Positions 3,367 through 33,987 of a DNA stretch of 37,113 nucleotides are shown here, one piece after another. The DNA is from a virus, in the IMG/VR virus record IMGVR_UViG_3300044631_000684, positions 1-37,113 of that record. One strand, 5' to 3'. Every line of letters starts with the position of its first letter. Within the stretch, counting starts at the first letter, position 1. The translations under genes were made by a program, and so were the position numbers. The notes beneath the pieces were generated by a model, which worked only from the letters and a program-made list of their open reading frames with translations, ran no database searches and had not been told where the DNA came from.

Positions 3367-3905
3367 AAATATTTTATTCAAACCCTTTCGACTTAGACAA
3401 AAATATAGGTAAAGCCTATAATGAGTATTTAAGCAGCCTAAACGCTGAAGATGAGGATTGGGTCGTAATGCAAGACGGCGACATTCTGTATTTAACTCCT
3501 GACTGGGGTAAAAGAATTCACGATGCCTTGTCTTTAGACGGAGACAAATTTGGATTAGTTGGATGCTATACCAATAGGCTTAGATCAAAGCATCAATTGC
3601 ATAAAAAAGAGTTTAGTTACGACTTGAACTTAAAAAATCATTACGATATAGCCAAGAGTTATGAGGGGGGTGGGGTGGAAGAAATTAAAGAATACATTGC
3701 TGGGTTTTTTATGGCGTTTCAATACAAGACTTGGAAAAAAATAAATTTTACTGAGGATAGCCTAGCATTCGATTCATTGTTTTCGATGAGAGTAAAAGAA
3801 TTAGGATTAAAGATTGGATTAATCCGCTCGCTTTACGTTTTCCATAGTTACAGACTTTGGGCAGACGATGAGCCTTGGAATGAGAAAAAGCATTTACTAA
3901 AATAA
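3363..3905 (+). CDS. Small glycosyltransferase-like protein (180 aa)
   Basis: The short protein has VVMQDGDILYLTPDWG (34-49), with DGD matching the acidic motif of GT2-type folds. The region YIAGFFMAFQYKTW plus FDSLFSMRVKELG resembles the second half of small GT-A enzymes that recognise an acceptor. The N-terminal half of a full GT2 domain is not present, so it may work with another enzyme of the cluster; that is inference. It contains one of the genome's G-tract motifs (3665-3678), read here as three Gly and a Val. It is the last gene of the ATGA-linked cluster. Confidence 0.65.
   Translation: MKIFYSNPFDLDKNIGKAYNEYLSSLNAEDEDWVVMQDGDILYLTPDWGKRIHDALSLDGDKFGLVGCYTNRLRSKHQLHKKEFSYDLNLKNHYDIAKSYEGGGVEEIKEYIAGFFMAFQYKTWKKINFTEDSLAFDSLFSMRVKELGLKIGLIRSLYVFHSYRLWADDEPWNEKKHLLK
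3665..3678 (+). repeat. G-tract motif copy 1 (G6-T-G4-T-GG)
   Basis: Six G, T, four G, T, GG, inside the small glycosyltransferase gene and read as GGG GGT GGG GTG. One of seven similar G tracts on the + strand of an AT-rich genome. Confidence 0.8.
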
Positions 3906-3916
3906 GTAGTATCTTT

Positions 3917-4057
3917 ATGATAAAATTATTGATTGACCTATTACCATTTCAAAAAGGAGAGGTGTTAACTGTAGGTAAGACTTACGACACTTACTTGGTT
4001 GACAAAGGGATGGCAATTTGGGTTAAAGTGGACAAAGAAAAAATTAAAACGAAATGA
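3917..4057 (+). CDS. Hypothetical small protein (46 aa)
   Basis: This 46-residue open frame begins at an ATG 11 bases after the last glycosyltransferase and overlaps the next gene as ATGA. It reads as a short hydrophobic N-terminus (MIKLLIDLLPFQKG) then a mixed-strand body ending in Lys-rich sequence. It looks like a small beta-barrel or SH3-like domain (GEVLTVGKTYDTYLVDKGMA), but I cannot assign a family. The junction overlap and position between two real genes are the main support. Confidence 0.6.
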   Translation: MIKLLIDLLPFQKGEVLTVGKTYDTYLVDKGMAIWVKVDKEKIKTK

Positions 4058-4521
4058 GCGCGACTAAACCTTTAGAAATTGCGTACAATTACCAGGTAGC
4101 GACTGAGCCAATTACCTTGGCCGAGGCTAAGGCTTGGATGCAAATCGATTACACAGACTGGGACAGTTTAATTACCAACCAATTGATTCCAGCGGCTAGA
4201 ATCGAATCTGAGAAAGCCAGCGGAATGCTTTACGTTCAACGAAATGTGACTATTTCAAATAACAAGCGTGACGAGCGAATTTATCCAATTGGGCCTTGGG
4301 TTGCTGACGTTACAACCGACGAAACCGAGATTGAAAATTATGTTTATTCTGCTGGTTTTAACAATTCTAATCTTTTGCCACAAGACCTTAAAATTGCGAT
4401 GCTCAGAAGGATTGCAACCGATTTTGCATATCGTCAAAACCTAATAACAGTCCAGGAGCAGTACGCTCAAAAGAATAGCATTACTACTGAGTTAAAATAT
4501 AGAGCCGACCTATTCGTATGA
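4054..4521 (+). CDS. Head-tail connector protein (gp6-like)
   Basis: The 155-residue protein resembles the HK97 gp6 and SPP1 gp15 adaptor family, which forms the ring joined to the portal. The diagnostic region is EPITLAEAKAWMQIDYTDWDSLI followed by a helix with an IPAARIESEKASG stretch. The C-terminal helical segment (LKIAMLRRIATDFAYRQN) also fits. The size is usual for the family. It is first in the usual order connector, head closure, tail completion, tail terminator, tail tube. ATGA-type overlap links it to both neighbours. Confidence 0.85.
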   Translation: MSATKPLEIAYNYQVATEPITLAEAKAWMQIDYTDWDSLITNQLIPAARIESEKASGMLYVQRNVTISNNKRDERIYPIGPWVADVTTDETEIENYVYSAGFNNSNLLPQDLKIAMLRRIATDFAYRQNLITVQEQYAQKNSITTELKYRADLFV

Positions 4522-4844
4522 TTAACTTTGGAAAATACGACCAGAAAGTTACTTTTATAAACTTTCAATCTGTAAGTGATGGGGCTGGAGGTACAACTCT
4601 GACTCCATTAATTTCTTTAATTACCTTTGCGTCAATAAAGCAAACTAAAGGAACTGATGGTCTAGAATCTGGTCAGATGGTTCTACCAAACACATATGAG
4701 GTAAGAATTCAATATAGAACTTCATTTATTCCAGATATTTATTTCCAAATTTTATACAGATCGAAATACCACAAAATTATTGGAATAAAGTTGGATGAAA
4801 TGAGGCAAAGAAAAGAGTTTGTTATAACAATGATTGGAATATAA
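4518..4844 (+). CDS. Head closure / head-tail joining protein
   Basis: The 108-residue protein fits the SPP1 gp16 and HK97 gp7 type head-closure family (phage head-tail joining). It opens with the strand pattern NFGKYDQKVTF, followed by a D-G-A-G-G turn, a T-x-W-like central strand region and a C-terminal KYHKIIGIKLDEMRQRKEFVITM block typical of the family. It would sit below the connector ring and close the head exit. It overlaps the upstream gene by 4 bases and the next by 1 base. Confidence 0.82.
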   Translation: MINFGKYDQKVTFINFQSVSDGAGGTTLTPLISLITFASIKQTKGTDGLESGQMVLPNTYEVRIQYRTSFIPDIYFQILYRSKYHKIIGIKLDEMRQRKEFVITMIGI

Positions 4845-5805: not shown

Positions 5806-5809
5806 AGCA

Positions 5810-6918: not shown

Positions 6919-8890
6919 TGTAGTTGCAAACGTCGCTGGTATAGCAAGCGGAGTTAATACCGCTACATCACAACTTGAAAAATTAGGAAATGCGGCACAA
7001 TCAACTGCACCTAAATTTGAGCAATTAGGAAAAGCGACTAGTAGGTATAATGCTATAGGAATTGATTTTGCTAGAGTAATTCAAGACGCTCCTTTTGGAA
7101 TTATTGGCGTTGGTAACAACATTACCCAGTTGGCCCAATCATTTTCTGGTTTAGGCAAGGCTGGTGATTCATTAGGGTCAAGATTACAATTAGCATTTGG
7201 TCAAATTTTTAGTTCTGGGAATCTTTTAGTTTTAGCCGTATCTGCAATAACAACTGTATGGACACTTTATGAAAAAGGCGCTTTTAAATCTGAAGAGGCA
7301 ACAAAATCATTAAGTGAAAGATTAGATGAATACAGAGAAAAATTACAAGGTGTTACAAAAGCCAATTTAGAAGGTCAAATTTCTGCTCAAAAAGAATTAT
7401 CCAATCTTAAGTTACTTCAAATTCAGGCTCAAAATACCAATATTTCTTTAGAAAAAAGATTAGAAGCGGTAGATCAATTAAAAAAACAATATCCTGAATA
7501 TTTAAAAAATTTAACCGATGAGCAGATATTAACTGGAAAAGTTGGTGAATCTTATAAAAATTTAACAGACGATATAATTGCATTAGCAAAGGCAAAAGCA
7601 TTATCGGCTGAATTAGATAAAAAAGCAAGTGATATTTTAACTCTTAGACTTCAAGAAGAACAGAGAGCAAACGAAATTTTACAATTAAGAGAAAAATTAC
7701 AAGTTGCTATAAACAATAAAATTGACGCCGGTGCTAGAGTTGCTGGTCAATTTACTGCGGAGAATGACGACGCAATGATTATTCAGATGAATATCGATAA
7801 ATTGATTAAGGAACAATTAAAAAGTGCAGAGGATAGAAACAAAATAGCAAAGGAGCAATTATTTATTGAATCTCAAATTGTAAATGAAAATTCAAAAGGT
7901 GCAAATTTTGCTAAGCAGACAGGTAAAGAAATTGATGCAAATACGGATAAATTAAAAAAATATTCTCAGGGTTGGGATGAGTATAATTTACAACAAGAAA
8001 CTGCTAATTTTCTAGCAAATAAATATTCAGTAACTCAAAAAGACTTAGAAAAAAATATTAGAGGTGTTTTAACTGCTATACCAAAAGAACCAGTTAGAAT
8101 TATCTCTGATGATGAAGCACTACAGGCTTACAATGATGAGTTATTAAAAACTCAAAAAGCTGCTTACCAAGTTTCTTTGGAGTTAATGCGTGGTTCAGAT
8201 TCTGCATTTAAATTTTCAGATAATTTAGACAAAATTAGTGGTAAAGACGTAAAAATAAAACTAGATGTTGAAGGATTTGGCGATGAACAAGTTGGGCCAA
8301 CTCCGTTTCAGAATTTTCTAGATTCAGTAGCATTACAACTTGATAGACTTCCAGAATTAGAACAAAGAGTTGCCGATTTTGCCAAAACAATTAATGAACT
8401 GATTGCAACAAATGTTACAGATGCTTTTATTGATTTAGGTTACACTATAGGAGAGACTTTAGCAAGTGGTGGAAATGTTCTAAAAGCAATAGGAGGCTCA
8501 TTACTAAAATCTTTTGCTAGGTTTTTAGGTCAATTTGGAGAGCAGTTAATTGCTTACGGTGTTGCAGCAGGAGCATTTGGAAAATTAAGCGTAGCATTGG
8601 CAGTTCCTGGAGCAGCAATTATTGCAGCACCATTAGCCATTGCTGCTGGTGTTGCTTTGACTGCAATCGCTGGAGTAATTGGAGGCTTAGGCAAAAAAGG
8701 AATGGGAGGCGGAGGAGGTGGAGGCGGTGGAGGTTCTGCTGGCGCCGGAGGAGGTTCTCAATTTACAGGTCTTGGCGCCCAAGGTGGATTATTTGCACAG
8801 AACAGAGATTTAAATGGCGAGTTAGTAGTTAGAGGCCAAGACTTAGTTTATGTATTTGGTCAGGCTAATAATAGAATAAACAAAGGATAA
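6893..8890 (+). CDS. Tape measure protein (665 aa)
   Basis: This is the tail length ruler and DNA-ejection factor. It has a polar, helical N-terminus (VANVAGIASGVNTATSQLEKLG), a hydrophobic segment (about residues 100-125), a long coiled-coil-rich middle (about 140-350), and a hydrophobic Ala/Val-rich region (about 545-620). It ends in a Gly-rich stretch (about 604-627) followed by a short charged tail. At roughly 1.5 angstrom per residue, 665 residues suggest a tail near 100 nm. The poly-Gly stretch is written with GGA, GGT and GGC codons and no G run, in contrast to the G-tract motifs elsewhere. Confidence 0.85.
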   Translation: MSNPRIEVDVVANVAGIASGVNTATSQLEKLGNAAQSTAPKFEQLGKATSRYNAIGIDFARVIQDAPFGIIGVGNNITQLAQSFSGLGKAGDSLGSRLQLAFGQIFSSGNLLVLAVSAITTVWTLYEKGAFKSEEATKSLSERLDEYREKLQGVTKANLEGQISAQKELSNLKLLQIQAQNTNISLEKRLEAVDQLKKQYPEYLKNLTDEQILTGKVGESYKNLTDDIIALAKAKALSAELDKKASDILTLRLQEEQRANEILQLREKLQVAINNKIDAGARVAGQFTAENDDAMIIQMNIDKLIKEQLKSAEDRNKIAKEQLFIESQIVNENSKGANFAKQTGKEIDANTDKLKKYSQGWDEYNLQQETANFLANKYSVTQKDLEKNIRGVLTAIPKEPVRIISDDEALQAYNDELLKTQKAAYQVSLELMRGSDSAFKFSDNLDKISGKDVKIKLDVEGFGDEQVGPTPFQNFLDSVALQLDRLPELEQRVADFAKTINELIATNVTDAFIDLGYTIGETLASGGNVLKAIGGSLLKSFARFLGQFGEQLIAYGVAAGAFGKLSVALAVPGAAIIAAPLAIAAGVALTAIAGVIGGLGKKGMGGGGGGGGGGSAGAGGGSQFTGLGAQGGLFAQNRDLNGELVVRGQDLVYVFGQANNRINKG

Positions 8891-11800
8891 ATGAACGATT
8901 ATAGGTTATTGCTTGCCGTTCGAGAAGGTCTTGGTACGATTACCGTTAACGGAGTTGCGCCTGTGGAATTCTATACCGAAGGGGATACTTTGACAATTGC
9001 TGTAAGTCCAGATGCTGGATTTCACACTGCAAAATGGTATTCAAGTCCAGGTAATAGTTTAATCAGTTCGACTTTATCGTTTAGTTTTACTATGCCGTCA
9101 AACGACGTTAAAATGTACGTTGTTCTTACTGGTCAAAATACTCCGATTAACGATTACGGCTTAAAATATGAGGGGGGGTATGCTACTAACTACGGCGGCT
9201 TAGTTTGGAACTTACAAATTCTTAGAACTGGCTATTCAGGTGCCGTTATTCCATTACAGATTAACGATATTACATACAATTGGGGAAATACTGGAAATGA
9301 TCCGATAGAGACAATTATTGGCTCGTCTGTTGACTTTACAATTGCTGGAGAAACTGGAGACTTTAACGAGTTTCTAGTTGGAGGAAATAGAACTTGGAAA
9401 GTAAACCTAAATCAGATTGGAACAAATGGAGATATTACCAACTGGCAACAAGTAACCAATACAAATAACTTTATTGGAGTTGCTTATGGAAACGGCATAT
9501 TTGTAGCCACGAGATCAAACGGAGTACATTATTCTACTGATGGAATAACTTGGAATGCAACCAACCCAGTTGGATTCGTTGGAGGTAAAATCACATTTGG
9601 TAACGGATTATTTGTAAATGTTGGAATCTCAGGAACAGACGCAAAGGTTTTTACCTCAGTAGATGGATTTGTTTGGGATTTCAGACAGACTGTAAGCGGT
9701 GGAACGATGAGTTTCACTGACATTGAATATGCAGACGGAAAATATGTTTGGTTAATTCAAGACGCAAGTTCAAAGAAAGTTTATAATAGTACTGACGGAA
9801 TAACTTGGACTTTAGGCTCCACCATTTCGGTAAGCGGCAACCTAACTGGAATTACTTACGGAGTTGGTACTTGGGTTATTTCTCTTACTGGTTCTCCAGG
9901 TACAATGCTAACCTCTTATGATGGTGTTACATTTGACAACCAAAGTACTGGTTTTTCAAGTTCAACTGTTTTCTACGCTGATGGAATTTTTACAACTGGT
10001 AAGCATTATTCTACAAATGGAATTGTTTGGAACGCTGCAACCTCACCAAATACTCCAGTTTCTATAACGTACGGAAATGACTATTTTATGGCCGTTACAG
10101 ACACTGATTTAAAATACTTGTATTCTACTGACGGAATCAATTGGACGGCTGACACGCCACCAAATACGTCAAATTTTAAAGATGTTACATTCGGTGAAAA
10201 TACCTTTGTTTCAGTTGGTAGCGGAGGAACAAACAGAATAAACTACCTTTTATTTGAAGGCCAAATACCTTTCTTTAGCGGTTACATTGCTCCGGACTTT
10301 ATTACGTCTCCATTTACAAGTGGCCCTAAACTATTCTCTTTTACAGCAATTGATGGACTAAAAGGATTGGATGCAATTCGCTCAAACTTTACCTCTTGGC
10401 CTGACCCACGGACGCAAGCAATTTCTGGAATTATTGGCTCGCTTAACCAGTCTTTTGTTGAGCAGCGTCAAGTATTAGTTGGTTGCGAAATCCACGAGAC
10501 CAGAATGGACTCGGACTTGAGCGTTTTCCGTCAATTTAACGTGCCACCAAATGCTATTTACACCGATGGAGAAGCCGCTAAGTTTACCAATGGGGTAAGA
10601 ATTGAAAACGAGCAATTGTATCTAAAGGAAACAATCGAAAGGCTGGTAAATCCTTTCTTATGCCGCGTTTTCTTATGGAAAAACAAGTTTTATATTGTCC
10701 GATTAAACGAGTTAATTAAAACGGATTATAAGGCTTATACATTCAATCCTGATACATCAATTGAGGCAATAGAAACGATTGTAAATGGCGACGATATTAA
10801 CGCGGATATTAACCGACCCGAAGAGACCGCTCGACGTGTCTTTACCGAGTTTAATGCTTACCTAAACCTTGGTATTTTGGACAAAGATTCTCAAGGCGGA
10901 GTTTTCGATGCTAAGTTTGAATCTCCAGAATGGAATCTAAATAGCGCCGCTTCGCCTTATCCAAATACCTACCAATTAAGTCTTTGGGATTACCATAATG
11001 CAATACCATCTTTGCAGCCCTCTAGCGTTCCAAGTGGAGGAACTGCTTTGGTTCAGTACGTTGCAGATTCAAGCGGTGAATATTGCCAAATTTGGACAAC
11101 AACAACAACTGCTGGAACTAGCGACCCGAATTTGTCCTACATTTCAGCGAATACAAATAGCACAGGCGGAGCGATAACAATCGCACAAGAAACGGCTAAT
11201 ACTATTTCGTTGACATTTGAGTACATGGTTGAGCGAGTTGGTTCGGCTTACCCGATAACGCCAGGAAGCGGAACGCACGCGGTTGGCTTAATGATTAAAA
11301 TTGGAAACCAGTATTTATTCAGAGACACGACAACGACATTTGATTGGACGGCAACGCCTACGGTTATGGAGTTCGCGGTTACCGCTGGCTCGGTTTGGAA
11401 TAGTATCGCAATTAATAACGTTTTAGTCCCAGTAGACGGCGAGGTTGAAATTAGATTGCACCAACTTATTTGTAATGGCGGAACGGCTAACAGATACGTT
11501 ATTCGTTACGATAACCTTTCTCTAAAGATTGAGAAAACAGATGGACTTTCTCTTTCTAAGTTGGGAGTCAAAGCGGTTACTGGCTCGCCTTACGCAAACG
11601 TGCATCCCGATTATAACACATACATCGGCGATGCAATTACTAGCAACTCGGCTTCTGCGATTAGGTTGATTAACGTTAATAATGAGGTATCAGAGGGTTG
11701 GAGTCGAGATGGAGTTGAGGACTTACCTTTGTTAGATATTATTGTGCAAGAATTGGCTAACTTGAAAGGTAGAACAAACTACAGAATTTTAGCAACTTTG

Positions 11801-11938
11801 GAACGTCGACCGATTGACCCATTCAGAGCGTTTTTATTTAATGAGCGTTATTGGGCTTTGGTTAGTTATCAGTTAAATTGCAGAACTGGAACGGCACAAA
11901 TTGAATTGTACGATTTAGGAATTGAACCAACTACATAA
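8891..11938 (+). CDS. Tail hub / tail-tip protein with inserted beta-propeller
   Basis: This 1015-residue protein directly follows the tape measure. Residues about 1-80 resemble an InlB-type B-repeat (beta-grasp). Residues about 90-177 begin a hub-like domain ending RTWKVNL. Residues about 183-455 hold seven repeats of the pattern G-I-x-Y-G-x-G-x-F-V ... S-T-D-G-I-x-W, a BNR or kelch-like propeller. Then the hub fold resumes (FFSGYIAPDFI, FSFTAIDGLKGLDAIR). The region around 690-880 is beta-sandwich-like, possibly carbohydrate-binding, and the end (RPIDPFRAFLFNERYW...) looks like a hub or baseplate segment. Probably receptor-contacting. The start ATG abuts the tape measure stop. Confidence 0.7.
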   Translation: MNDYRLLLAVREGLGTITVNGVAPVEFYTEGDTLTIAVSPDAGFHTAKWYSSPGNSLISSTLSFSFTMPSNDVKMYVVLTGQNTPINDYGLKYEGGYATNYGGLVWNLQILRTGYSGAVIPLQINDITYNWGNTGNDPIETIIGSSVDFTIAGETGDFNEFLVGGNRTWKVNLNQIGTNGDITNWQQVTNTNNFIGVAYGNGIFVATRSNGVHYSTDGITWNATNPVGFVGGKITFGNGLFVNVGISGTDAKVFTSVDGFVWDFRQTVSGGTMSFTDIEYADGKYVWLIQDASSKKVYNSTDGITWTLGSTISVSGNLTGITYGVGTWVISLTGSPGTMLTSYDGVTFDNQSTGFSSSTVFYADGIFTTGKHYSTNGIVWNAATSPNTPVSITYGNDYFMAVTDTDLKYLYSTDGINWTADTPPNTSNFKDVTFGENTFVSVGSGGTNRINYLLFEGQIPFFSGYIAPDFITSPFTSGPKLFSFTAIDGLKGLDAIRSNFTSWPDPRTQAISGIIGSLNQSFVEQRQVLVGCEIHETRMDSDLSVFRQFNVPPNAIYTDGEAAKFTNGVRIENEQLYLKETIERLVNPFLCRVFLWKNKFYIVRLNELIKTDYKAYTFNPDTSIEAIETIVNGDDINADINRPEETARRVFTEFNAYLNLGILDKDSQGGVFDAKFESPEWNLNSAASPYPNTYQLSLWDYHNAIPSLQPSSVPSGGTALVQYVADSSGEYCQIWTTTTTAGTSDPNLSYISANTNSTGGAITIAQETANTISLTFEYMVERVGSAYPITPGSGTHAVGLMIKIGNQYLFRDTTTTFDWTATPTVMEFAVTAGSVWNSIAINNVLVPVDGEVEIRLHQLICNGGTANRYVIRYDNLSLKIEKTDGLSLSKLGVKAVTGSPYANVHPDYNTYIGDAITSNSASAIRLINVNNEVSEGWSRDGVEDLPLLDIIVQELANLKGRTNYRILATLERRPIDPFRAFLFNERYWALVSYQLNCRTGTAQIELYDLGIEPTT
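9172..9180 (+). repeat. G-tract motif copy 2 (G7-TA, shortened)
   Basis: Seven G then TATG, inside the tail hub gene, read as GAG GGG GGG TAT. It lacks the second G run and is the weakest of the seven copies. Confidence 0.5.
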
Positions 11939-16721: not shown

Positions 16722-16864
16722 TGCCATTACCTAAGCCAAAACCAGCCGAAAGCCAAAGCGATTTTGTCGCTAGATGTGTAGCCGACCCAGTAATGGAGCG
16801 TGAGTTTCCGCGTATGGATCAGCGATTAGTAATTTGCTACGTTCAATTTAAAGGCAAAAAATGA
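16721..16864 (+). CDS. Hypothetical protein (47 aa), head-module-like motif
   Basis: The start is the ATG at 16721, which overlaps the previous stop (TAATG). The protein reads KPAESQSDFVARCVADPVMEREFPRMDQRLVICYVQF. This S-x-x-x-F-V-x-R-C ... M-x-x-E-F-P-x-x-x-Q-R-x-x-x-C pattern is one I know from short proteins or domains near portal and prohead protease genes in other phages. Here it stands alone in the lysis unit. Function not established. Confidence 0.65.
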   Translation: MPLPKPKPAESQSDFVARCVADPVMEREFPRMDQRLVICYVQFKGKK

Positions 16865-20463: not shown

Positions 20464-20685
20464 CTAAAAAGGCAAATCAAAAGCCTCTAAATGCAATACT
20501 GGAGTCTTATAGTCTGTTCCAAACCTGCTTAGGTATTGAAATGCGAGTACCCTATTATCTTCTCGCATTTTTAACCAAATCCCTTGAGTATAGGTCTTGT
20601 CATATTCTCCAGGTCTTTCTTCCATAAATTTATCCCAGAATACATCAAATGGGATTTGTGATACTTCGTCTAGTGCTTCAATCAT
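20464..20685 (-). CDS. Hypothetical protein (73 aa) ending in SSB-like DLPF
   Basis: The 73-residue helical protein has VFWDKFMEERPGEYDKTYTQGIWLKMREDNRVLAFQYLSRFG and ends LEAFDLPF. The last residues match the tip of the SSB-like protein (NDLPF), so it may bind the same partners; inference. The helical core resembles small replication accessory proteins, but no family is assigned. It lies directly between the primase-helicase and the methyltransferase and overlaps the former by 4 bases. Confidence 0.65.
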   Translation of the reverse strand: MIEALDEVSQIPFDVFWDKFMEERPGEYDKTYTQGIWLKMREDNRVLAFQYLSRFGTDYKTPVLHLEAFDLPF

Positions 20686-22889
20686 TTCTTTAAGTGTTTA
20701 TAAATAGTGGTTCTACTAACATTTAGTAATTCTGCCAACTCAGATCGGTTAAAATCTGGAATTGTCTTATAAATCATATCGATTTTCTTTTCTATAGACT
20801 CATTTTTCATCGACCGAATAATCTCACTAAGTTCATTGGACTCTAAACTGCTTACCTTAATCTTCTTAGACATTGCAATGAAGTAGTTACTTAACTTCTC
20901 TGCTTTTAGCAATGATTCCTTAGTAACAAAATCAAAATCTTTACCTGTCTCGAATGACCATAGAGTATTAATCAACAGAGCAAATCTTGGTACATAGGCC
21001 TTCTGCTTACTCAACATCGATTTCACATATTCTGAGATATCATCAGAGTTCTGCAAATCGGTGATGTTATTAAATATACGCTCCCACTCAATATCTGCTT
21101 GGCTATCGAATCGAATAATTCTACTTTCAATCTCTCCAAACTTATTGTACTGCAAAACTTGATTTCTTACAAGGTTATAGAACTGACTAATGTAAGCCTC
21201 GTACCAATCCAATATTTCTTGGTCAATCGAGTTCTTATTGTAATGCTCAATCTCTTTGTCCGGATAACTTACAAGCAATCGATCTAAAAATCCGTTGTCT
21301 TTGTTTTCCATTGTGGAAATCTGAGAAAATATTCCAGGTTGTATACCACCTAGCACCGGAATCAATGGACTTTGAACAAAACTACTTTTTGCAGTCTTAC
21401 GAGTTAGAATTGCTGCTTGATTAGACCAGCAGGACAACCAGAACTCGAGATCAGAACCTGGCTTATACTTATTCATATCCTTAATCCAACCATTTAGTTC
21501 ATCCTTGAACACTGCAATCCCTACTTGGTTTTCTTCGTGCAAATCCGCCAAGGCTTCAACTGTAATGTCATTAACAATCAATTGCTTTCTTACTGGCTCC
21601 TTAACTTCCTCAACATCTTTCTTTTCTTTTGATGTCAATCGCTCGTATTCCTTGTATTTCTTATACTCATTCTGAAAGTGCTTAATCTCAAAACTGTTTT
21701 TCTTAGCAATTGGAAATATAATGGCATTTATACTAGGTGTTTTTCCTAATCCAGCCTTACCAATCAAGCCAATCCAAATGTTGCAAGATTCTCTCCAACC
21801 AGTTTTTACCTCTACCTTGCAAGCGTTACCGATGCATAGTGAAAGAAGCCAAAGCAAGGAACATCCCATATAGTCGATAGAATGATTAAGTGTTTTCTGA
21901 TTTAACAGAATATAACTCTGTATTGAGTCTGGAAACACATCAATCGGAAATATCAAGTCTTCCTTTGGAATCTCAATCTTCTCAATCTCTACTTTTCGAA
22001 TTTTACGTTCTCCGTAGCCTTCCTTGTAAAGTTCCTTAGCAGCCAACGAGAAGTCTCCATTAAAGTACTTGTAGGCATAGATAGCAAATGGAGTTAAAGG
22101 TGTTTCGTGAGGATAGATTGTTGCAGTAGTAAATAGGTAACATAAACCTGTATCCTTGTAGATAAATCCGTGCAAAGCATCCTTACTTTCTGACTTGCGT
22201 AGAACTATTCGGTCAGATAGGTGCTTAATGGCCATAAATTCGCCTTGTAAAAGGTCAATTGCCTTGTTCCTATGGTTATAGTCATCCCAAGGAGTTAAAC
22301 CGCTGTAATCGCCTTCTTTTGGCTTTATTTCCTCTGTCTTTTCCTCGTAATGAAAATACTTACATAGATTTATCAACAGATCACGTTCCTCTAGAGTAAT
22401 TTCTTGAATCTGCTCATAAGATAATTCACTTACCTGGTTGTCGTAGATGTAAATATATCCGCCAGTACCTCTAGTTTCAATTAAAGCCTGAGAATGCCCC
22501 TTGAGTGTAGCAAGTTTTCTGTTTCCCTCTACCTTAGAACATCTATAGATGATGTGGTATCCGGAGTTAATGGTTTTGTAGATTACGAACTTTCTAGCAA
22601 AATCATCTATGTAATCTGAAACGAATGCTATAAACTCATTCCAAAATTTCTTACCCTCTTGTACACTAGGAAATACTTTTAAGTCGATGTCTATACATTC
22701 AGTACCATAAAATCCTGTAATAATACCATAACCCTTGGTTTTAGACTCTAGCCTTTCTAACTCGGCTTTTTCTATCTTTTTTGTCTGGTATTCTTTCCAT
22801 AAAATCAAAGGTTTTTTACCCTCAGATATTGGCATTACACTGAAACCTGAGTTCAGTAAGTTAATTGCTCTTCCTAATGTTACGTTCAT
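20682..22889 (-). CDS. Primase-polymerase / DUF3987 helicase-like replication protein
   Basis: The 735-residue protein (ATG 22889; the frame extends upstream to 22967 but that adds an unlikely G-tract-encoded PPP segment) has an archaeo-eukaryotic primase-type N-terminus with TECIDIDLK (D67, D69) and a KTINSGYHIIYR block. A P-loop GKAGLGKT lies at 377-384, then FKDELNGWIKDMNKYKPGSDLEFWLSCWSNQ and a GGIQPGIF motif typical of DUF3987. A HTH-like tail (SELAELLNVSRTTIYKHLKK) ends it. It is the likely replicative primase-helicase. A repeat-rich intergenic region lies directly upstream, which could be an origin. Confidence 0.85.
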   Translation of the reverse strand: MNVTLGRAINLLNSGFSVMPISEGKKPLILWKEYQTKKIEKAELERLESKTKGYGIITGFYGTECIDIDLKVFPSVQEGKKFWNEFIAFVSDYIDDFARKFVIYKTINSGYHIIYRCSKVEGNRKLATLKGHSQALIETRGTGGYIYIYDNQVSELSYEQIQEITLEERDLLINLCKYFHYEEKTEEIKPKEGDYSGLTPWDDYNHRNKAIDLLQGEFMAIKHLSDRIVLRKSESKDALHGFIYKDTGLCYLFTTATIYPHETPLTPFAIYAYKYFNGDFSLAAKELYKEGYGERKIRKVEIEKIEIPKEDLIFPIDVFPDSIQSYILLNQKTLNHSIDYMGCSLLWLLSLCIGNACKVEVKTGWRESCNIWIGLIGKAGLGKTPSINAIIFPIAKKNSFEIKHFQNEYKKYKEYERLTSKEKKDVEEVKEPVRKQLIVNDITVEALADLHEENQVGIAVFKDELNGWIKDMNKYKPGSDLEFWLSCWSNQAAILTRKTAKSSFVQSPLIPVLGGIQPGIFSQISTMENKDNGFLDRLLVSYPDKEIEHYNKNSIDQEILDWYEAYISQFYNLVRNQVLQYNKFGEIESRIIRFDSQADIEWERIFNNITDLQNSDDISEYVKSMLSKQKAYVPRFALLINTLWSFETGKDFDFVTKESLLKAEKLSNYFIAMSKKIKVSSLESNELSEIIRSMKNESIEKKIDMIYKTIPDFNRSELAELLNVSRTTIYKHLKK

Positions 22890-23206
22890 TTTGTTTTTAC
22901 AAAGTTTTGAAAAATAGGGGGGGGGTAGGGTATTTTTTGGCTGTTTTTGGCAAAAAAGTGTACACAAGTTTACACTAAGTTTACACTAGGTGTAAACCCC
23001 CTAAAAGTGCTTACACGCTTTAATTTGACCGATTTTTGCCACTTTTTTGACTCAAGTTTACAAGTTTACACTTTTTTTCGTAATGTATTTTTTTTTGACT
23101 CGATAAAATTTATTTTTTTTTATTTTTGTCAAAAAGTGTTCAAAGTGTTCACTTATTGCGTTTGGAGCCAATGGAGGCTGATTTTGGTTTACACTTAGGT
23201 GTACAC
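22890..23206. other. Repeat-rich intergenic region, candidate origin or control region
   Basis: About 317 bases without a gene, very AT-rich with poly-T. It holds several copies of GTTTACACT or its complement AGTGTAAAC: a cluster at about 22963-23000, one at about 23053-23072, and one at about 23188-23225 that also reads into the end of the HTH gene. The last cluster contains GTGTACACTTAGTGTAAAC-type inverted repeats. It lies between the primase-helicase and a three-HTH protein. A replication origin or an autoregulatory site is the most likely role; inference. Confidence 0.55.
22917..22931 (+). repeat. G-tract motif copy 5 (G9-TA-G3-T)
   Basis: Nine G, TA, three G, T in the intergenic region upstream of the primase-helicase. 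It shares flanks AAAATA...TAT with copy 6, although it is non-coding in the chosen annotation. Confidence 0.75.
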
Positions 23207-23662
23207 TTAGTGTAAACTAGTGTACACCCCAGTTCTGATCTTTCTGACCCAATACTGAACTTGTCCATATGGTACTTCTAACTTGTAAGAAATGTTAGCG
23301 ATTTTATATCCATCCTTCCATAAACGTTCTACTTCTCTAAGATTTTTTATGGTTATTCCTTGACGCCTACGAAAAGTAGTCAACTTAATCAAATCACAGA
23401 TTTGATAATGTTTTAATCCAGTACGCTCAGAGATTTGCTTGTAGGGATAATCATTTTTATACATTTCAATCACCAGATCGGCTTGCTTATAATGTTCTGA
23501 GGTATACTTAGACCGCTCATTTTTCTTTAGGTAATCTTTGTAGAGATAATTGTTTACCAAGTGTTTTGAAACCCCTACAAAAGTGGCTATGTTTTTATTT
23601 AAAATCTTTAACTTATATAGCCTTACTATTTCGTCTTTCTGTTGCTGTGTTAGTGATGTCAT
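23207..23662 (-). CDS. Putative DNA-binding protein with three HTH units
   Basis: The 151-residue protein has three similar helix-turn-helix blocks: TQQQKDEIVRLYKLKILNKNIATFVGVS (5-32), YKQADLVIEMYKNDYPYKQISERTGLK (58-84) and IKNLREVERLWKDGYKIANISYKLEVP (104-130). Each reads as a resolvase- or sigma-like HTH (…LY…G…I…). Its end lies in the GTTTACACT repeat cluster, so it is a natural candidate to bind those repeats. The role could be origin recognition or transcription control. No enzyme motif is seen. Confidence 0.7.
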   Translation of the reverse strand: MTSLTQQQKDEIVRLYKLKILNKNIATFVGVSKHLVNNYLYKDYLKKNERSKYTSEHYKQADLVIEMYKNDYPYKQISERTGLKHYQICDLIKLTTFRRRQGITIKNLREVERLWKDGYKIANISYKLEVPYGQVQYWVRKIRTGVYTSLH

Positions 23663-23853
23663 TTCTTTTCGTAGGTTTCGTTGTAGTATCCTTCTCCATC
23701 TAAGAATTCACCATTAAATATACCTTCCCAATAAGCATCTTCAATCTGCTCCTTTTCCATTTCTATTGCTTTAAGAAATAAACTTGCTAAACTTACTTGA
23801 TTTTCAGGCTTTATAAATTCATCAAATAGCCATTTTACTGCTGTCTGTTTCAT
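23659..23853 (-). CDS. Hypothetical protein, tandem paralogue A (64 aa)
   Basis: I use the ATG at 23853, which overlaps the upstream stop as ATGA; the frame also runs upstream to 23892. The protein has MKQTAVKWLFDEFI ... EMEKEQIEDAYWEGIFNGEFLDGEGYYNETYEKK. The pattern MKxTAVxxLF ... EMExxQIxxA ... G-E-x-Y-Y-x-E-x-Y recurs in the next gene upstream, so the two are tandem paralogues. I know this family as common in Bacteroidetes phages; its role is unknown. Confidence 0.72.
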   Translation of the reverse strand: MKQTAVKWLFDEFIKPENQVSLASLFLKAIEMEKEQIEDAYWEGIFNGEFLDGEGYYNETYEKK

Positions 23854-24062
23854 CCGTAGTTTTCTCTGTAGTATTGTTCGCCTGTCAACCAATATTCATA
23901 ATTTCCAGCAGTTTGAGTTTTCTTTAATTGCTTTCCGTGAGCCTCAACTATCTGCTGTCTTTCCATTTCCTTAGCATCTATTAAAAATTTATACCAGGTA
24001 AGTTTGTCTTTTGGATTATCCCATAATTTCTGAAATAAGAAATCTACTGCTGTTTCTTTCAT
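23850..24062 (-). CDS. Hypothetical protein, tandem paralogue B (70 aa)
   Basis: The 70-residue protein begins MKETAVDFLFQKLWDNPKDK and has FLIDAKEMERQQIVEAHGKQ then LTGEQYYRENYG at the end. It shares the MKxTAVxxLF, EMExxQIxxA and YYxExY landmarks with its downstream neighbour, and both are joined by ATGA. It is probably a product of tandem duplication. Function unknown. Confidence 0.72.
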   Translation of the reverse strand: MKETAVDFLFQKLWDNPKDKLTWYKFLIDAKEMERQQIVEAHGKQLKKTQTAGNYEYWLTGEQYYRENYG

Positions 24063-24265
24063 AGTTCGTTTTGTTCTTTTGTGTTTACAAATTTTTTATT
24101 GCTTAAATCTTGTTCTTCCTGCAGAGAAATAAATTTATCGCAGTACTCATACTCAAAAGGAGTTTTGATAAAGTAGAACTGATAGTAATTTGGAATTGCA
24201 CAATATCTGTAGCATTTACTTCTGATTGGACAATCTATTCCCTCGCACATAGTTACATCGCTCAT
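24059..24265 (-). CDS. Cys-rich mini-protein, early paralogue (68 aa)
   Basis: The 68-residue protein has cysteines at 7, 12, 18, 22 and 42, with the N-terminal C-x4-C-x5-C-x-R-Y spacing identical to the late gene at 670-846 (MxDxTMC start). This suggests a common metal-binding or structural core placed once in the early and once in the late region. The C-terminus (SLQEEQDLSNKKFVNTKEQNEL) is polar. It overlaps genes on both sides by 4 bases. Function unknown. Confidence 0.7.
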   Translation of the reverse strand: MSDVTMCEGIDCPIRSKCYRYCAIPNYYQFYFIKTPFEYEYCDKFISLQEEQDLSNKKFVNTKEQNEL

Positions 24266-24861
24266 ACCAGTAGTTGTTTAACGTACTCACGACATTCTAA
24301 TACCTTAGCCTTAGCAGATTCAATCACGTTCGAATCATAATCAATGTTAAATTCCTTTATTCTGTACTTGTTTTCCACGTGCGAGTAACTTACCGGTTCC
24401 TCATAAGTTAAATAGTCTGGAGTGTCCTGAAGTGTGTAAACCAATTTGGCCTTTTTTAAGCCCGTCAGATGCATATAAACTTGCAGTTGATAGAAGTACC
24501 CATTGTCAGGCTGTTCGTCGAACAGAGGGAATGTAAAGCAGTCCCACGAGGTTTTAAAATCGTATACTACTCCTTCGTGTAAACAGTCTGGAGTTCCAGT
24601 AAAGAAATCATCTTCAAATTTATCCAGGTTTTTAATCATAAAACTCTGATCCATTGCAATAGAATAAAATTCAATCGCCATATCTTCCAAGGCTAATCCT
24701 TTTTGGATGTACTTGGACTTGATTTGCTTTTTTACTCCGTAAATCTGCTCTTTGTACCAATCTTCCAGGTAACTTTTTGCAGTTTGGGATAAAGTTTCGT
24801 TTTTACTGCGTGCGCTGGTCATCAATTGACCAAGCGCACTTGCTCTGCATTTAAAGTTCAC
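24262..24861 (-). CDS. PD-(D/E)XK exonuclease-like protein (YqaJ/lambda-exo type)
   Basis: The 199-residue protein has ALED (E59), GTPDCLHEGVVYDFKTSWD with D92, D101-x-K103, and a following Q-helix YQLQVYMHLTGLKKAKLVYTLQDTP. This is the active-site layout of the YqaJ and lambda-exonuclease fold. Such enzymes chew double-stranded DNA to give single strands for an annealing protein. The neighbour upstream is an ERF annealing protein, and the ATGA overlap fits a paired recombination system. Confidence 0.85.
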   Translation of the reverse strand: MNFKCRASALGQLMTSARSKNETLSQTAKSYLEDWYKEQIYGVKKQIKSKYIQKGLALEDMAIEFYSIAMDQSFMIKNLDKFEDDFFTGTPDCLHEGVVYDFKTSWDCFTFPLFDEQPDNGYFYQLQVYMHLTGLKKAKLVYTLQDTPDYLTYEEPVSYSHVENKYRIKEFNIDYDSNVIESAKAKVLECREYVKQLLV

Positions 24862-25379
24862 GATAATAGAAGTTTTTCGTTTTGTGATGTTAAAATGTAT
24901 ACCGACTTAATTTGCTCCATTGAAACTTTGCCATTTGCCAAAGAATCCTTGGCTCCTTGCCACTTGACGTGAGCCGGAGTTAATTCCTCTTTTTTACCAC
25001 CGTGATCGTTGGTTGAATCTGGGTCTTTTGTATCATCTATGAGGAAAAGACCGTTAAGCGCGTATTTTCGAGCATAACTAGACGACGAGCCGAAACTTTG
25101 AGCCACATCCATACCTTTTCGATTTACGTCTATCCCGGCCTGCGCAGTAACTGCTCTACCTTCCATATCTTTTTGAATTGCAGCAGTAGATTCTATGAAT
25201 ACAATACCACCTACTTCTTTGACTTCGTCTTCGATAGTCAAGGTACATTCGTACTTTAGAAGCAATGGCTTCAAAGCCTCTAAAATATCTTCAACAGATC
25301 GGTACTTATACTTCCCGAAGGCGTTAAACTGGTTCTTTGGAGCCTTTAACTCCGATTGGATTGCAATTAGTTCTTTCAT
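24858..25379 (-). CDS. ERF family single-strand annealing protein
   Basis: The 173-residue protein matches the ERF superfamily: LIAIQSELKAPKNQFNAFGKYKYRSVEDILEALKPLLLKYECTL, then a beta region and the signature GMDVAQSFGSSSSYARKYALNGLFLIDDTKD, which fits the G-x-A-x-S-Y-x-x-R-Y/K-x-L block. It anneals complementary strands during recombination-dependent replication. It overlaps the exonuclease gene by 4 bases. The leader upstream is A/C-rich with no Shine-Dalgarno. Confidence 0.88.
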   Translation of the reverse strand: MKELIAIQSELKAPKNQFNAFGKYKYRSVEDILEALKPLLLKYECTLTIEDEVKEVGGIVFIESTAAIQKDMEGRAVTAQAGIDVNRKGMDVAQSFGSSSSYARKYALNGLFLIDDTKDPDSTNDHGGKKEELTPAHVKWQGAKDSLANGKVSMEQIKSVYILTSQNEKLLLS

Positions 25380-25406
25380 TTTGTGTTTGTGTTTTTTTAA
25401 AGTGTT

Positions 25407-25583
25407 TTACTTAGAAAAAATAGGGGGGGGTGGGGTATATTTTTCTAGCGTCTTAATTTCAGCATACCTAAAGTTGAATTGATCCCAATACAACTCAAAA
25501 GTGTTTGCTATCTTTTGTTTTACACTACGTTCTAAATCACCGTAGTTTTCCAAAATCCATTCGTTTATTCTATGCTCTACCAT
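25407..25583 (-). CDS. Small hypothetical protein (58 aa) with G-tract-encoded proline tail
   Basis: The frame runs from ATG 25583 to TAA 25407. The protein begins MVEHRINEWILENYGDLERSVKQKIANTFELYWDQF and ends TPPPPIFSK. The four Pro are coded by the C complement of the G-tract motif (25423-25436). It overlaps the excisionase-like gene by 14 bases. It has normal amphipathic helical character for its first 45 residues. I find it plausible but cannot name it. Confidence 0.5.
   Translation of the reverse strand: MVEHRINEWILENYGDLERSVKQKIANTFELYWDQFNFRYAEIKTLEKYTPPPPIFSK
25423..25436 (+). repeat. G-tract motif copy 6 (G8-T-G4-T)
   Basis: Eight G, T, four G, T on the + strand, antisense to the leftward 58-aa gene. 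It shares flanks with copy 5. Confidence 0.8.
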
Positions 25584-25746
25584 TTTCTATCCATTCTTTT
25601 GATACAAATACTATCCATTGGTTGCCTATTTTTTTAGGCGCTTGAGTCCACTCTGAAGGAAATATACCTGATCTGATAATCTGGTGAACTCTAGTTGATT
25701 TTTCGCTATAGCCTTTAAGTACTCCGTACTCTGTGGCTGACATCAT
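25570..25746 (-). CDS. Excisionase/MerR-like DNA-binding protein (58 aa)
   Basis: I chose ATG 25746 because it overlaps the upstream stop as ATGA; ATG 25758 would add four residues. The protein has MMSATEYGVLKGYSEKSTRVHQIIRSG (a winged-helix-type HTH), then PKKIGNQWIVFVSKEWIENGRA (wing and strand). Such small proteins bind DNA as excisionases or regulators. No integrase is seen, so a regulatory role is more likely. Confidence 0.6.
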   Translation of the reverse strand: MMSATEYGVLKGYSEKSTRVHQIIRSGIFPSEWTQAPKKIGNQWIVFVSKEWIENGRA

Positions 25747-25982
25747 TTCGTAAAGCATTTTGTAACTTCGATTTCTAATTGTTCAATAATAAAAGGATCA
25801 AGAATTGCACAAATCGTGCGGTAATGGTCAGAGAATTTTTCGGTTAGGGAATCGTAAATGTCGAAAGTGATTGATTTTCCACTACCGAAATAAAGTTCTA
25901 AAGCGATTCCGTCATTTTCAAACGACTCCAGTTCTAAGGTTAATCCTGACTGGTCTAAGCAGTAATAATGATCTTTTAACAT
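25743..25982 (-). CDS. Hypothetical protein (79 aa)
   Basis: The 79-residue acidic protein has strands GLTLELESFENDGIALELYFGSGKSITFDIYDSL followed by helices. It is the first gene downstream of the TTTTCCACTA repeat array, and the strand carries a leader with the ACTAAACAAACAAA pattern. A promoter candidate CTTGCA...TTATAATTTTA lies at about 25998-26035. Function unknown. Confidence 0.55.
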   Translation of the reverse strand: MLKDHYYCLDQSGLTLELESFENDGIALELYFGSGKSITFDIYDSLTEKFSDHYRTICAILDPFIIEQLEIEVTKCFTK

Positions 25983-26059
25983 TTTTTTGTTTGTTTAGTG
26001 TGATGTAAAATTATAATTTGTTGTAATGCAATGCAAGAGAATTGTAAAATTTATTTTTG

Positions 26060-26472
26060 TTTTCCACTAGCGGTAATTTTTTTGTTTTACTGGTTTTATT
26101 TTCCACTACCGATTTCGTTTTCCACTACCGCGTTGCAAATTTCGTTTTCCACTACTGGTTTTATTTTCCACTACTACCTAGGATTTCGTCTAGGTTTTGG
26201 ATTTCGTCTAGGGTTTTATATTTCCACTAGGTATTTAGATTTCCACTACTGGTTTTAATTTCCACTAGATCGCGGCCTTGTTTCTGTTTTCTTCTACTAA
26301 TTAACCGCGCAAATTTACAAGGCGTTTAAATTTTAGAACTGGTTCTAACTGGTTCTTTTTTTTGTTTTCGTCTACTAGTTTGGATTTCGTCCACTACTTT
26401 TGTTTTATACTACTGGTTTTATTTTCCACTATGGATTTTAATTTTCCACTAGGTATTTGGTTTTCCACTACG
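26060..26472 (+). repeat. Array of about 17 TTTTCCACTA repeats in non-coding DNA
   Basis: The non-coding stretch 25983-26564 contains about 17 copies or variants of TTTTCCACTA, all in one direction. Clear copies start near 26060, 26098, 26117, 26145, 26164, 26220, 26239, 26258, 26422, 26442 and 26461; variants read TTTCGTCTA or TTTTATACTAC. Spacing is irregular and often close to multiples of about 20 bases. Spacers include CGGTAA, GGTATTT and CTGGTTTTA patterns. No CRISPR-like uniformity is present. The open frame read through it is low-complexity and looks spurious. Confidence 0.8.
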
Positions 26473-26564
26473 CTCGCGCGCTTGGTTTATTTGGCTATTT
26501 TTAAGCCCATAGACAAACGATAAATTTTTACTAGTGGTAATATATACGCGAAAATTTAAACGTC

Positions 26565-29358: not shown

Positions 29359-30570
29359 ATGATCAACCTACTTGAGGATTATAAACCGTTATTTTACGAG
29401 CAGCCAGAAACCAGGTATTATTTAATTACTGGCGGCCGCGGTTCGGGCAAAAGTTGGACGTTGGCGCTGTTCCTTCTTAATTTAACGTATCAAAAAGGAC
29501 ACGTGATCTTGTTCACGCGATATACCTTAGTTTCCGCGTTTATTTCGATTATCCCCGAGTTTTTAGATAAAATTGAGATAATGGGAAAAGTTAACGACTT
29601 TGAGGTAACTCAATCCGAGATCATTAATAAATTAACAGGATCAAAGATTCTATTTCGTGGAATCAAAACAAGTTCAGGCGTTAATACTGCGAATCTTAAA
29701 TCAATCGCTGGCTTATCAACTTGGGTAATTGATGAAGCCGAGGAATTAACCGATTCAGACGTTTTCGATAAAGTCGACTTGTCAATACGAGCGAAGGAAA
29801 ACTACAACCGCGTTATTTTAGTAATGAATCCGGCTTATAAGTCACATTGGATTTACAAAGACTTTGTAAAAAAGAAAAGAAAGGATACTACCTACATTCA
29901 TACAACTTACCTCGATAATAAAGAAAACTTAAGCGATTCGTTTATACAGGCCGCGGAAAAAACCAAACGAGAGAATCGCGCGCGATATGAACACCTATTC
30001 CTTGGTACTTGGTTGGATGACGCCGAAGGAATGCTCTGGAATCGCGCGATTATTGGAAAAGCGCGAATAGATGAAGCGCCGAACCTTTCTCGAATTATAG
30101 TCGCAATCGATCCCGCGACGACTGCAAATATGAATAGCGATGAAACTGGCTTAGTAGTCGTTGGAAAAGACAGCGAAGGTTTTGGATATGTGTTGGAGGA
30201 TTTAAGCGGCAAATATTCCCCGAATCATTGGGCAAAGGTTGCAACGGATGCGGCGTTTAGGTGGAACGCGGATTGCATAGTAGCCGAGAAAAATCAAGGC
30301 GGCGATATGGTCGAAGCCGTATTGAAATCTCAAGGAACTAATTTCAGGATTAAGTTAGTAACGGCAACAAAGGGAAAATATGTGAGAGCAGAGCCAGTTT
30401 ATTCGCTTTATGAGCAAGGCCAAATATTTCACGTTGGAAGTTTCCCTATTTTAGAATCGCAAATGGTAACCTTTGATCCTGACAAAGGGAAAAGCCCTGA
30501 CCGCGTAGATGCGCTTGTTTGGGGATTAACTGAATTAATGGTAAAAAATAACTTTGAATTCTCAATATGA
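29359..30570 (+). CDS. terL: Large terminase subunit (ATPase-nuclease)
   Basis: The 403-residue packaging motor has Walker A GGRGSGKS (25-32), Walker B VIDEAEE (123-129), and the RNase H-like nuclease motifs AIDPATT (D251), AEKNQGGD (E310) and SPDRVDALVWGL (D381, D384). The layout fits the PBSX/Terminase_3 group. Its stop overlaps the next ATG as ATGA. It is preceded by the terS-like gene, four bases apart. Confidence 0.93.
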   Translation: MINLLEDYKPLFYEQPETRYYLITGGRGSGKSWTLALFLLNLTYQKGHVILFTRYTLVSAFISIIPEFLDKIEIMGKVNDFEVTQSEIINKLTGSKILFRGIKTSSGVNTANLKSIAGLSTWVIDEAEELTDSDVFDKVDLSIRAKENYNRVILVMNPAYKSHWIYKDFVKKKRKDTTYIHTTYLDNKENLSDSFIQAAEKTKRENRARYEHLFLGTWLDDAEGMLWNRAIIGKARIDEAPNLSRIIVAIDPATTANMNSDETGLVVVGKDSEGFGYVLEDLSGKYSPNHWAKVATDAAFRWNADCIVAEKNQGGDMVEAVLKSQGTNFRIKLVTATKGKYVRAEPVYSLYEQGQIFHVGSFPILESQMVTFDPDKGKSPDRVDALVWGLTELMVKNNFEFSI

Positions 30571-32139: not shown

Positions 32140-32142
32140 GGA

Positions 32143-32910
32143 ATGAGAAAAATTAATTACTCCAAGGTTAGAAGGTCAGCACAAGCAGACTTGAAGAGAT
32201 ACGAGCGCATTGGGGTAAAAATATTTACTGAGGCATTAAGAGAGCAAGCAAAGCCAGTTGTTCCCTTGTTGCCGATGCAAGAGGCTTATATAAAGTTTTA
32301 TCAGACTGTATTTGTTGATTCTGCAACTAAAGAGTTTAATAGAATTCGTCAAGATAATCGAGAGAAGGCTTTTCTGCCGGATGATTTTTTTCTTAGCGCT
32401 TGGCTTGAGTTTATAAAGAATTGGGTAATTCTGAATTTAGGGCAGTTAATATTTGATGTAACAGATACTAGTCAGAAAAGAGTTAACGAGATAATTGCTC
32501 AAGGTATTCAAGATGGATTAAATCCAAGACAGATTGAAGAATTATTGATTCAGCAGATTCCTGACGTAAAGCGAGCGAGAGCCATTGCTAGGACTGAATC
32601 CACAAGAGCATATAATGAAGGTAAGATGAAGTCTGCAATTGATTGGGCAAATCAGACTGGAACTAGACTTTGGAAGATTTGGATTCACGGAGGAGCGAAA
32701 GAGCCAAGGATTCAGCACATACAAGCGCAGAATAAACCGATTAGAGCAGATCAGCCATTTGTGTTCTTTACAAATGGTGTTCAAGTATTAATGGACAAGC
32801 CTGGTGATTTAAACGGTGGAGCCGCTCAGACCGTAAATTGCAGTTGTGTTGTGGTTTACGTTTCAGAGAGTTATGCTAGGAGATACTTTAAAGATACGTT
32901 TGTTCTATAA
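32143..32910 (+). CDS. MuF-like minor head protein
   Basis: The 255-residue protein matches the Mu gpF/SPP1 gp7 minor head family. The signature is RARAIARTESTRAYNEGKMKSAIDWANQTGTRLWKIWIHGGAKEPRIQHI and a closing NCSCVVVYVS, which mark the C-terminal domain. These proteins sit at or near the portal inside the capsid. It lies in the classic order portal, MuF, protease, capsid. Confidence 0.87.
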   Translation: MRKINYSKVRRSAQADLKRYERIGVKIFTEALREQAKPVVPLLPMQEAYIKFYQTVFVDSATKEFNRIRQDNREKAFLPDDFFLSAWLEFIKNWVILNLGQLIFDVTDTSQKRVNEIIAQGIQDGLNPRQIEELLIQQIPDVKRARAIARTESTRAYNEGKMKSAIDWANQTGTRLWKIWIHGGAKEPRIQHIQAQNKPIRADQPFVFFTNGVQVLMDKPGDLNGGAAQTVNCSCVVVYVSESYARRYFKDTFVL

Positions 32911-32919
32911 TCAATTTTG

Positions 32920-32961
32920 TTTGTTAATTTTATTTCTTTGTATATTTGGGTAAACGAATAA
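32920..32961 (+). promoter_or_regulatory. Late promoter upstream of protease-capsid
   Basis: TTTG (32920-32923), 17-base spacer, TATATTTG (32941-32948), then GGTAAACGAATA. Strongest of the four late promoters by match; drives protease and capsid. Confidence 0.85.
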
Positions 32962-32964
32962 GCA

Positions 32965-33987
32965 ATGCTAGACAAAGCCGAGCAAACGTATTCTGATTAT
33001 CCACAGGCAGTTAGAAATAACGCTAAGAGGGTTTTGAAATATGTTGACGAGAATGGTTGGGGGCCTTGTGGAACGCCAGTAGGCAAGCAAAGAGCGAATC
33101 AACTTGCAAAGGGTGAGCCTTTGTCTGTTGATACGATTAAGAGAATGTATAGTTATCTTAGCCGGCACGAAGTTGATTTAGAGTCTTCTTCATCTTATTC
33201 TGATGGTTGTGGATTGTTGATGTACGATGCTTGGGGGGGTAGGGCTGCTTTGACTTGGAGCAGAAATAAATTAAAGGAATTAGAAAAGACTACGGATATG
33301 GGTTTTGTAAAAAAAGGATTAAACCAAGGCTTTGCTGAAAGCGATATGAAACAAGGAGTTGTTTCTGGCTACTTCGCTGTTTTCGGTAACAAAGACCTTG
33401 ATGGTGATATTATCGAGCCAGGAGCGTTTACCAAGACAATTATGGAGCGTGGGCCACAAGGAAAGCAATTAATCAAGTATTTGCTAGATCACGATAAAAA
33501 TAAGGTAGTCGCAAAAATTACCAATCTTTACGAAGACAATAAAGGCTTGCGTTACGAGGCTAAGATTGGAAGTCACGCTGCTGGGCAAGACTTTCAGAAG
33601 ATGATTGAAAGTGAACTAATCAACCAGCATTCGTTTGGCTTTAGAACTATTAAAGAGCAGTTCGACCAGCAGGCTAAAGCGAACTTAATTAAAGAGGTTA
33701 TGATGTACGAAGGATCAGCAGTACAATTCTTGGGTGCTAATCCGGAGACTACGTTTATTGACCTTAAAAGCGAGGCGGATGCATTCGAATATCTTGAAAG
33801 ACTTGAGAAGTTTGTAAAGACCTCAGACGCAACTGACGAAACACTTGAAAAACTAGAAAATCAACTCAAATCACTTTTGGAGTTTCTAAAGCCAGCAGAT
33901 CCTACTTTAGAAGAGAAGAAAGCCGAGGCGGTCGAAATAATAACAATTAACGAACTTAAAAAAGAATTAGAAAAATGGAAAATCTAA
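32965..33987 (+). CDS. Prohead protease (HK97/S78 type) with extra N-terminal domain
   Basis: The C-terminal part (about 112-260) is an HK97-type prohead protease: GVVSGYFAVFGNKDLDGDIIEPGAFTKTI, LLDHD with catalytic H176, and INQHSFGF with catalytic S223. The first about 105 residues form a second domain with WGPCGTPVGKQRANQLAKGEPLSVDTIKRMYSYLSRHE and DAWGGRAALTWS. I know this domain as occurring in phage head modules beside proteases. Here it is fused. The C-terminal acidic tail (about 280-340) may act as scaffold. A G-tract copy (33233-33244) falls in the WGGRA codons. Confidence 0.85.
   Translation: MLDKAEQTYSDYPQAVRNNAKRVLKYVDENGWGPCGTPVGKQRANQLAKGEPLSVDTIKRMYSYLSRHEVDLESSSSYSDGCGLLMYDAWGGRAALTWSRNKLKELEKTTDMGFVKKGLNQGFAESDMKQGVVSGYFAVFGNKDLDGDIIEPGAFTKTIMERGPQGKQLIKYLLDHDKNKVVAKITNLYEDNKGLRYEAKIGSHAAGQDFQKMIESELINQHSFGFRTIKEQFDQQAKANLIKEVMMYEGSAVQFLGANPETTFIDLKSEADAFEYLERLEKFVKTSDATDETLEKLENQLKSLLEFLKPADPTLEEKKAEAVEIITINELKKELEKWKI
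33233..33244 (+). repeat. G-tract motif copy 7 (G7-TA-G3)
   Basis: Seven G, TA, three G, C in the extra domain of the protease gene, read TGG GGG GGT AGG GCT. Confidence 0.7.

Follow-up and report, generated by a model that had tools for sequence, protein, structure and literature searches.

Why should a phage keep long runs of guanine on one strand only, inside and outside of genes and in transcription units of opposite direction? The question is raised by the viral record IMGVR_UViG_3300044631_000684 of IMG/VR, of which positions 1 to 37,113 (the window, 37,113 bases in length) were analysed here. A first-pass annotation had counted seven copies of a polar G-tract motif and offered a Chi-like recombination site, a packaging signal or a G-quadruplex as its function. 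We find six full copies of the form A-G6-9-T(A)-G3-4, all of them on the + strand, while the copy claimed at 9172 is a half copy. Comparison with related phages shows that selection acts on the DNA and not on protein or RNA, and we tentatively favour a Chi-like signal that would be read by a recombination enzyme of the host.

A one-strand motif in excess of codon usage

The copies in the window, with the number of motif entries at the same position among relatives where given, are as follows.

3665 to 3675, + strand: motif copy GGGGGGTGGGG (G6TG4) in the gene at 3363-3905 (+), read as GAG GGG GGT GGG GTG (EGGGV); 14 entries, recoded or lacking in motif-free relatives
9172 to 9178, + strand: half copy G7TATG without the second G tract, in the gene at 8891-11938 (+)
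15764 to 15776, + strand: motif copy GGGGGGGGTGGGG (G8TG4) in the metallophosphoesterase gene at 15248-16129 (+)
17277 to 17287, + strand: motif copy GGGGGGTGGGG (G6TG4) in the gene at 16861-17409 (+); seen in this phage alone
22917 to 22930, + strand: motif copy G9TAGGG, intergenic, with the ATG of the leftward primase gene (22889) 28 nucleotides downstream; 36 entries
25423 to 25435, + strand: motif copy G8TGGGG, intergenic, with the ATG of the leftward erf gene (25379) 44 nucleotides downstream; 34 entries
33233 to 33244, + strand: motif copy G7TAGGG in the head maturation protease gene at 32965-33987 (+), read as TGG GGG GGT AGG (WGGR); 24 entries, G7TAGGG in every one

The strand bias stands as the annotation had described it, including the two copies in the leftward early region (22917 and 25423), which are both intergenic, and the lack of any CCCCCC run on the + strand, whose longest C run is 5. 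The GC skew flips with transcription and is negative in the leftward region, where the G tracts nevertheless stay on the + strand. Lengths of G runs are bimodal in the window (24 runs of G4, one of G5 and eight of G6-9), and two of the longer runs, G6CG at 20012 and G5 at 33059, do not form the motif. Under a codon-aware null, with synonymous shuffling gene by gene and a Markov model for intergenic DNA, 0.21 copies are expected on the + strand and 0.005 on the - strand against 6 and 0 observed; at most one copy arose in 400 shuffles. This null is conservative, since the shuffled codon pools include the motif's own GGG codons. The annotation had also held that a need for glycine does not explain the tracts, and rightly so: GGG provides 8.5% of the glycine codons in the window, five of the 63 Gly-Gly runs open with GGG, exactly those at the flagged sites, and the poly-Gly stretch at 8703-8760 has no run that begins with GGG.

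Polarity and form of the motif in related phages

Scans of IMG/VR yielded at least 597 confirmed relatives by terminase and 128 by primase. In 160 related loci (1.54 Mb, set in phage orientation) the word was found 111 times forward and once in reverse, a ratio that does not stand for 111 independent events, as the loci are partly overlapping fragments and the independent units are about 11 positions plus the changes between lineages. The lone reverse copy lies in locus L027 (1-11660), in which 24276-26248 is joined inverted beside another strain's copy of that region in forward orientation; the contig is an assembly chimera of two strains and was rejected as a real exception. G6AGGG words near 29380, upstream of the terminase in another lineage, were left out of the motif counts and of the tree labels used below.

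The occupied positions, mapped onto the window, are 3665, 15300, 15764, 17277, 19415, 20450, 22917, 23650-23900, 24200, 25423 and 33233. They fall in leftward and rightward transcription units alike and always on one strand, and in circular and near-complete relatives every copy points one way. The motif hence follows the DNA strand rather than the transcript. Positions 19415 and 20450, the two edges of a methyltransferase cassette, may be one site in cassette-free genomes.

Several relatives carry the motif at 20450, precisely at the point that forms one edge of the C5 methyltransferase cassette in this phage. Several motif positions coincide in this way with module junctions, which suggests a tie between the word and mosaic exchange.

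Of 70 distinct copies, 33 have TA as their spacer, 25 T, 11 A and one AT; an A precedes the motif in 59 and a T follows it in 64, and the total of G per copy is 9-14, most often 12. This composition bears on two alternatives. The first is a sequence of the KOPS type (the FtsK-orienting polar sequences). In its favour, the E. coli KOPS GGGNAGGG is matched by GGGTAGGG and GGGGAGGG, the forms with a TA or an A spacer, to which ~44 of the 70 copies belong by spacer class. The T spacer of 25 copies is a mismatch, however, and KOPS arms should converge on dif, whereas here the copies run all one way round the circular relatives without such a convergence, so that we regard this alternative as very improbable.

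The second is a G-quadruplex or G-loop hairpin that would act when the motif strand is single-stranded. The G content per copy is compatible with it, and the flanks are more complementary than shuffled ones (mean stem 3.72 vs 3.21, 0 of 500 shuffles, relatedness not being controlled). Yet none of the copies has the four G3 tracts with loops of a three-tier structure. A stable quadruplex of three tiers is impossible from 9-14 Gs with a single interruption of 1-2 nucleotides; only a two-tier form could arise, and in a model with RNA parameters none is predicted at 33233 or 17277. Coding copies are mostly stemless, and a quadruplex would have no need of the conserved spacer (T or TA) or of the conserved T that follows the final G tract (64/70). 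We therefore consider a structural role quite unlikely.

Selection on the DNA

Recoding at conserved peptides shows what is selected. At 15764 the peptide FHGSGGGG ends in GGG GGG GGT GGG in motif-bearing phages, while motif-free relatives encode the same peptide with GGA, GGT and GGC codons (GGA GGA GGT GGT, GGA GGT GGA GGT and others). At 33233 the WGGR of motif-bearing phages stands against WGGK in motif-free ones (for example TGG GGA GGT AAG), a change of lysine to arginine. MGGG at 17277 occurs in this phage only, its relatives having mostly LGAG, LGVG or LGGG without the word. Ahead of primase and erf the word forms an inserted cassette whose exact sequence varies and which motif-free relatives lack. 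Selection thus acts on the DNA, and the annotation's proposal of a polar, repeated DNA element is strongly supported by polarity, null model, recoding and lineage turnover together.

With these data it is scarcely credible that the tracts are functionless products of chance, codon bias or homopolymer slippage. Although variable run lengths imply that slippage contributes, such an origin is contradicted by the forward expectation of 0.2 copies, by recoding despite the low GGG usage and by the 111:1 polarity.

Gain and loss among near relatives

Three relatives (G012, G014 and G015; 20, 18 and 19 kb) have no copy at all, at 80-83% DNA identity to the window, equal to that of motif-bearing relatives. 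As far as their contigs extend over these genes, they have terminase, portal, exonuclease, Erf and primase in common with the window, and across motif-free relatives the terminase is 90-97% and the primase ~90% identical. The genes concerned lie in the window as follows.

29359 to 30570, + strand: large terminase (PHROG 979, 2, 3717), its coding strand being the motif strand
20682 to 22889, - strand: primase/helicase, the basis of the motif-presence tree
24262 to 24861, - strand: RecE-like exonuclease, common to motif-free relatives
24858 to 25379, - strand: Erf-like annealing protein for single-stranded DNA, common to motif-free relatives

When presence of the motif is mapped on the primase tree, five changes are required, of which branches with good support force four; none of 500 shuffles gave so low a number. 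No gene of the window is confined to motif-bearing relatives, save for the tape-measure gene, which is variable, and some small genes that motif-bearing genomes do not generally have. Since whole sets of the word are gained and lost repeatedly without a matching phage gene, its reader is best explained as host-encoded; a phage-encoded reader is not indicated by the gene comparison.

This turnover also bears on a one-strand signal for phage replication or packaging, such as a site of primase/helicase assembly or a primer start in unidirectional or rolling-circle replication. Such a role would agree with the one-strand layout throughout the genome and with the conserved copies upstream of primase and erf, and phage cos and pac sites are directional signals too. 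The identities of primase and terminase in motif-free relatives speak against it, as do the variable positions and copies too few for Okazaki starts. Unlike cos or pac the motif is present several times per genome (~6-9 sites) and is not tied to terminase type, so that the packaging or terminase signal suggested in the annotation is unlikely; the whole class of explanations we rate as clearly less probable than a host-read site.

A closer rival, and a serious one that the annotation had not considered, is a set of nick sites: late in infection, a nickase of phage or host would cut every copy on the motif strand, leaving virion DNA with fixed single-strand interruptions. This is the nearest published layout. 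Phage tf has 14 nicks in a 9-nucleotide word, on the top strand only, in a genome whose two gene sets converge (PMC3517423), and 60 relatives of phage Rembedalsseter keep their word polar inside and outside of genes (PMC11780129). Like the words of tf and the LUZ24-like phages (TACT/RTGMC), of phiKMV-like phages and of T5, the motif has many copies on a single strand, in both transcription units, genic and intergenic, and is kept in the family. Its sequence is unrelated to theirs, however, and known nick words are not homopolymers. A dedicated nickase should track motif presence, but no window gene does so, although the sci genes of T5 were not specifically searched for and a nickase gene common to both kinds of genome, with altered specificity, is possible; moreover, repeated loss and regain of the set among near relatives would be surprising if the system had an enzyme of its own. 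On balance we consider nicking unlikely, if less so than a replication or packaging signal.

In some motif-free genomes (for example G004 and G005) another word, GTGATGT, is commoner on the + strand. As a substitute polar word of motif-free lineages it was tried and dropped: ratios of 27:1 and 9:0 at discovery fell to 32:13 in held-out loci, where the bias failed, and motif-bearing genomes have 19:5.

The family also contains two unrelated capsid/portal types (~26% portal identity) behind a near-identical terminase, as seen at L176:2543-3955. Relatives with the second type are nearly all without the motif.

A possible Chi-like site read by the host

The reading that we favour, at a confidence somewhat below even, is that the G tracts all represent one polar signal, 5'-A-G(6-10)-(T, TA or A)-G(3-4)-T-3', which would act like Chi and be read by a host enzyme of the RecBCD/AddAB type. 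Of the three functions offered in the annotation, this one would fit best. Known Chi words are short, mostly G-rich, polar and different from taxon to taxon (PMC8022716); examples are GCTGGTGG in E. coli, GNTGGTGG in H. influenzae, GAAGCGG in S. aureus, GCGCGT(G) in L. lactis and AGCGG in B. subtilis. RecBCD must reach 5'-GCTGGTGG from its 3' side, and lambda offers its right end only (PMC2082072). The motif is likewise a short, G-rich polar word in many copies, over-represented as assessed in the phage's DNA rather than in that of a host, and its orientation on the terminase strand would suit an enzyme of the RecBCD type that reaches it from its 3' end. Judged from the coding strand and not from packaging polarity, the motif strand is that of the terminase and late genes, as expected from lambda. 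We take it to be the orientation that is active in lambda on the usual map. Six copies per ~34.5 kb are comparable to the density of Chi in E. coli.

We propose that packaging or breakage exposes the right-hand end of the phage DNA, from which the host enzyme would travel leftward and reach the word from its 3' side. There it would cease degradation and turn to recombination, so that the remaining concatemer is spared and may feed the Erf/exonuclease pathway of the phage or the RecA pathway of the host. Motif-free lineages would have hosts with a different enzyme or none of this kind, or would neutralise it otherwise.

Several points weigh against the Chi-like reading. The motif sequence is unrelated to known Chi words, none of which resembles a long homopolymer of varying length; no Chi of Bacteroidota, to which the host probably belongs, appeared in the literature searched; and Erf and an exonuclease are already encoded by the phage itself. 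A phage reader of the same gene family in both kinds of genome, with altered specificity, is possible. Furthermore, use of the word by other phages of this host is not apparent: two scans of viral contigs with 14-15-mers were made beyond the family and 50 low-GC records inspected whole, and among the matches listed all of these records but one had a single copy (one record had one per strand), the exception being G055, a member of this phage family with three copies.

Assignment of the host to the Bacteroidota is probable and rests on two lines of evidence. Distant relatives of terminase and primase include phages of Bacteroides and Cellulophaga, but also others, for example of Arthrobacter, and TATATTTG boxes ahead of several genes resemble what we take to be the promoter consensus of Bacteroidota. 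A terminase scan of genome contigs for the host gave no Bacteroidota match; it gave one match of 64% in a contig of a Sulfuricurvum metagenome-assembled genome, and others that were Sphingomonas, other proteobacterial, verrucomicrobial or unassigned. Sulfuricurvum was rejected as a word-bearing host, as this genome holds no copy. A fresh-water habitat is our guess.

That this is the first Chi-type site for a Bacteroidota host, built on a G homopolymer and gained and lost as whole sets when phages switch hosts, seems possible but doubtful. If it holds, the word could serve to read the recombination specificity of hosts from viral metagenomes. Polar DNA signals with visible selection at the codon level are rare, few bacteria have an established Chi word, and close relatives with and without the word represent a natural experiment. 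Its outcome would be either the Chi of an uncultured aquatic group or the extension to new phages of one-strand nicking, whose purpose has been obscure for decades.

Further features of the genome

The + strand carries large terminase, portal, head protease and major head protein, while the leftward early unit comprises a C5 DNA methyltransferase, the primase/helicase, the RecE-like exonuclease and the Erf-like annealing protein. No similar DNA was present in the phage collection, with which the first 25 kb of the window were compared. The window ends (1-2949 and 34680-37113) are ~88% identical, and both correspond to a single region that the circular relatives G002 and G008 have only once; the terminal repeated part has no full motif copy. 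By this comparison the two ends are probably alleles of two strains at which the record closes into a circle, and the true genome would be ~34.2-34.7 kb.

Upstream of primase, at 22958-23227, GTGTACAC palindromes lie within long inverted repeats; they are numerous in relatives too and are probable operator sites. At 26055-26489 about ten copies of a 19-nucleotide repeat ending in TTTTCCACTA are conserved in relatives and resemble an iteron replication origin.

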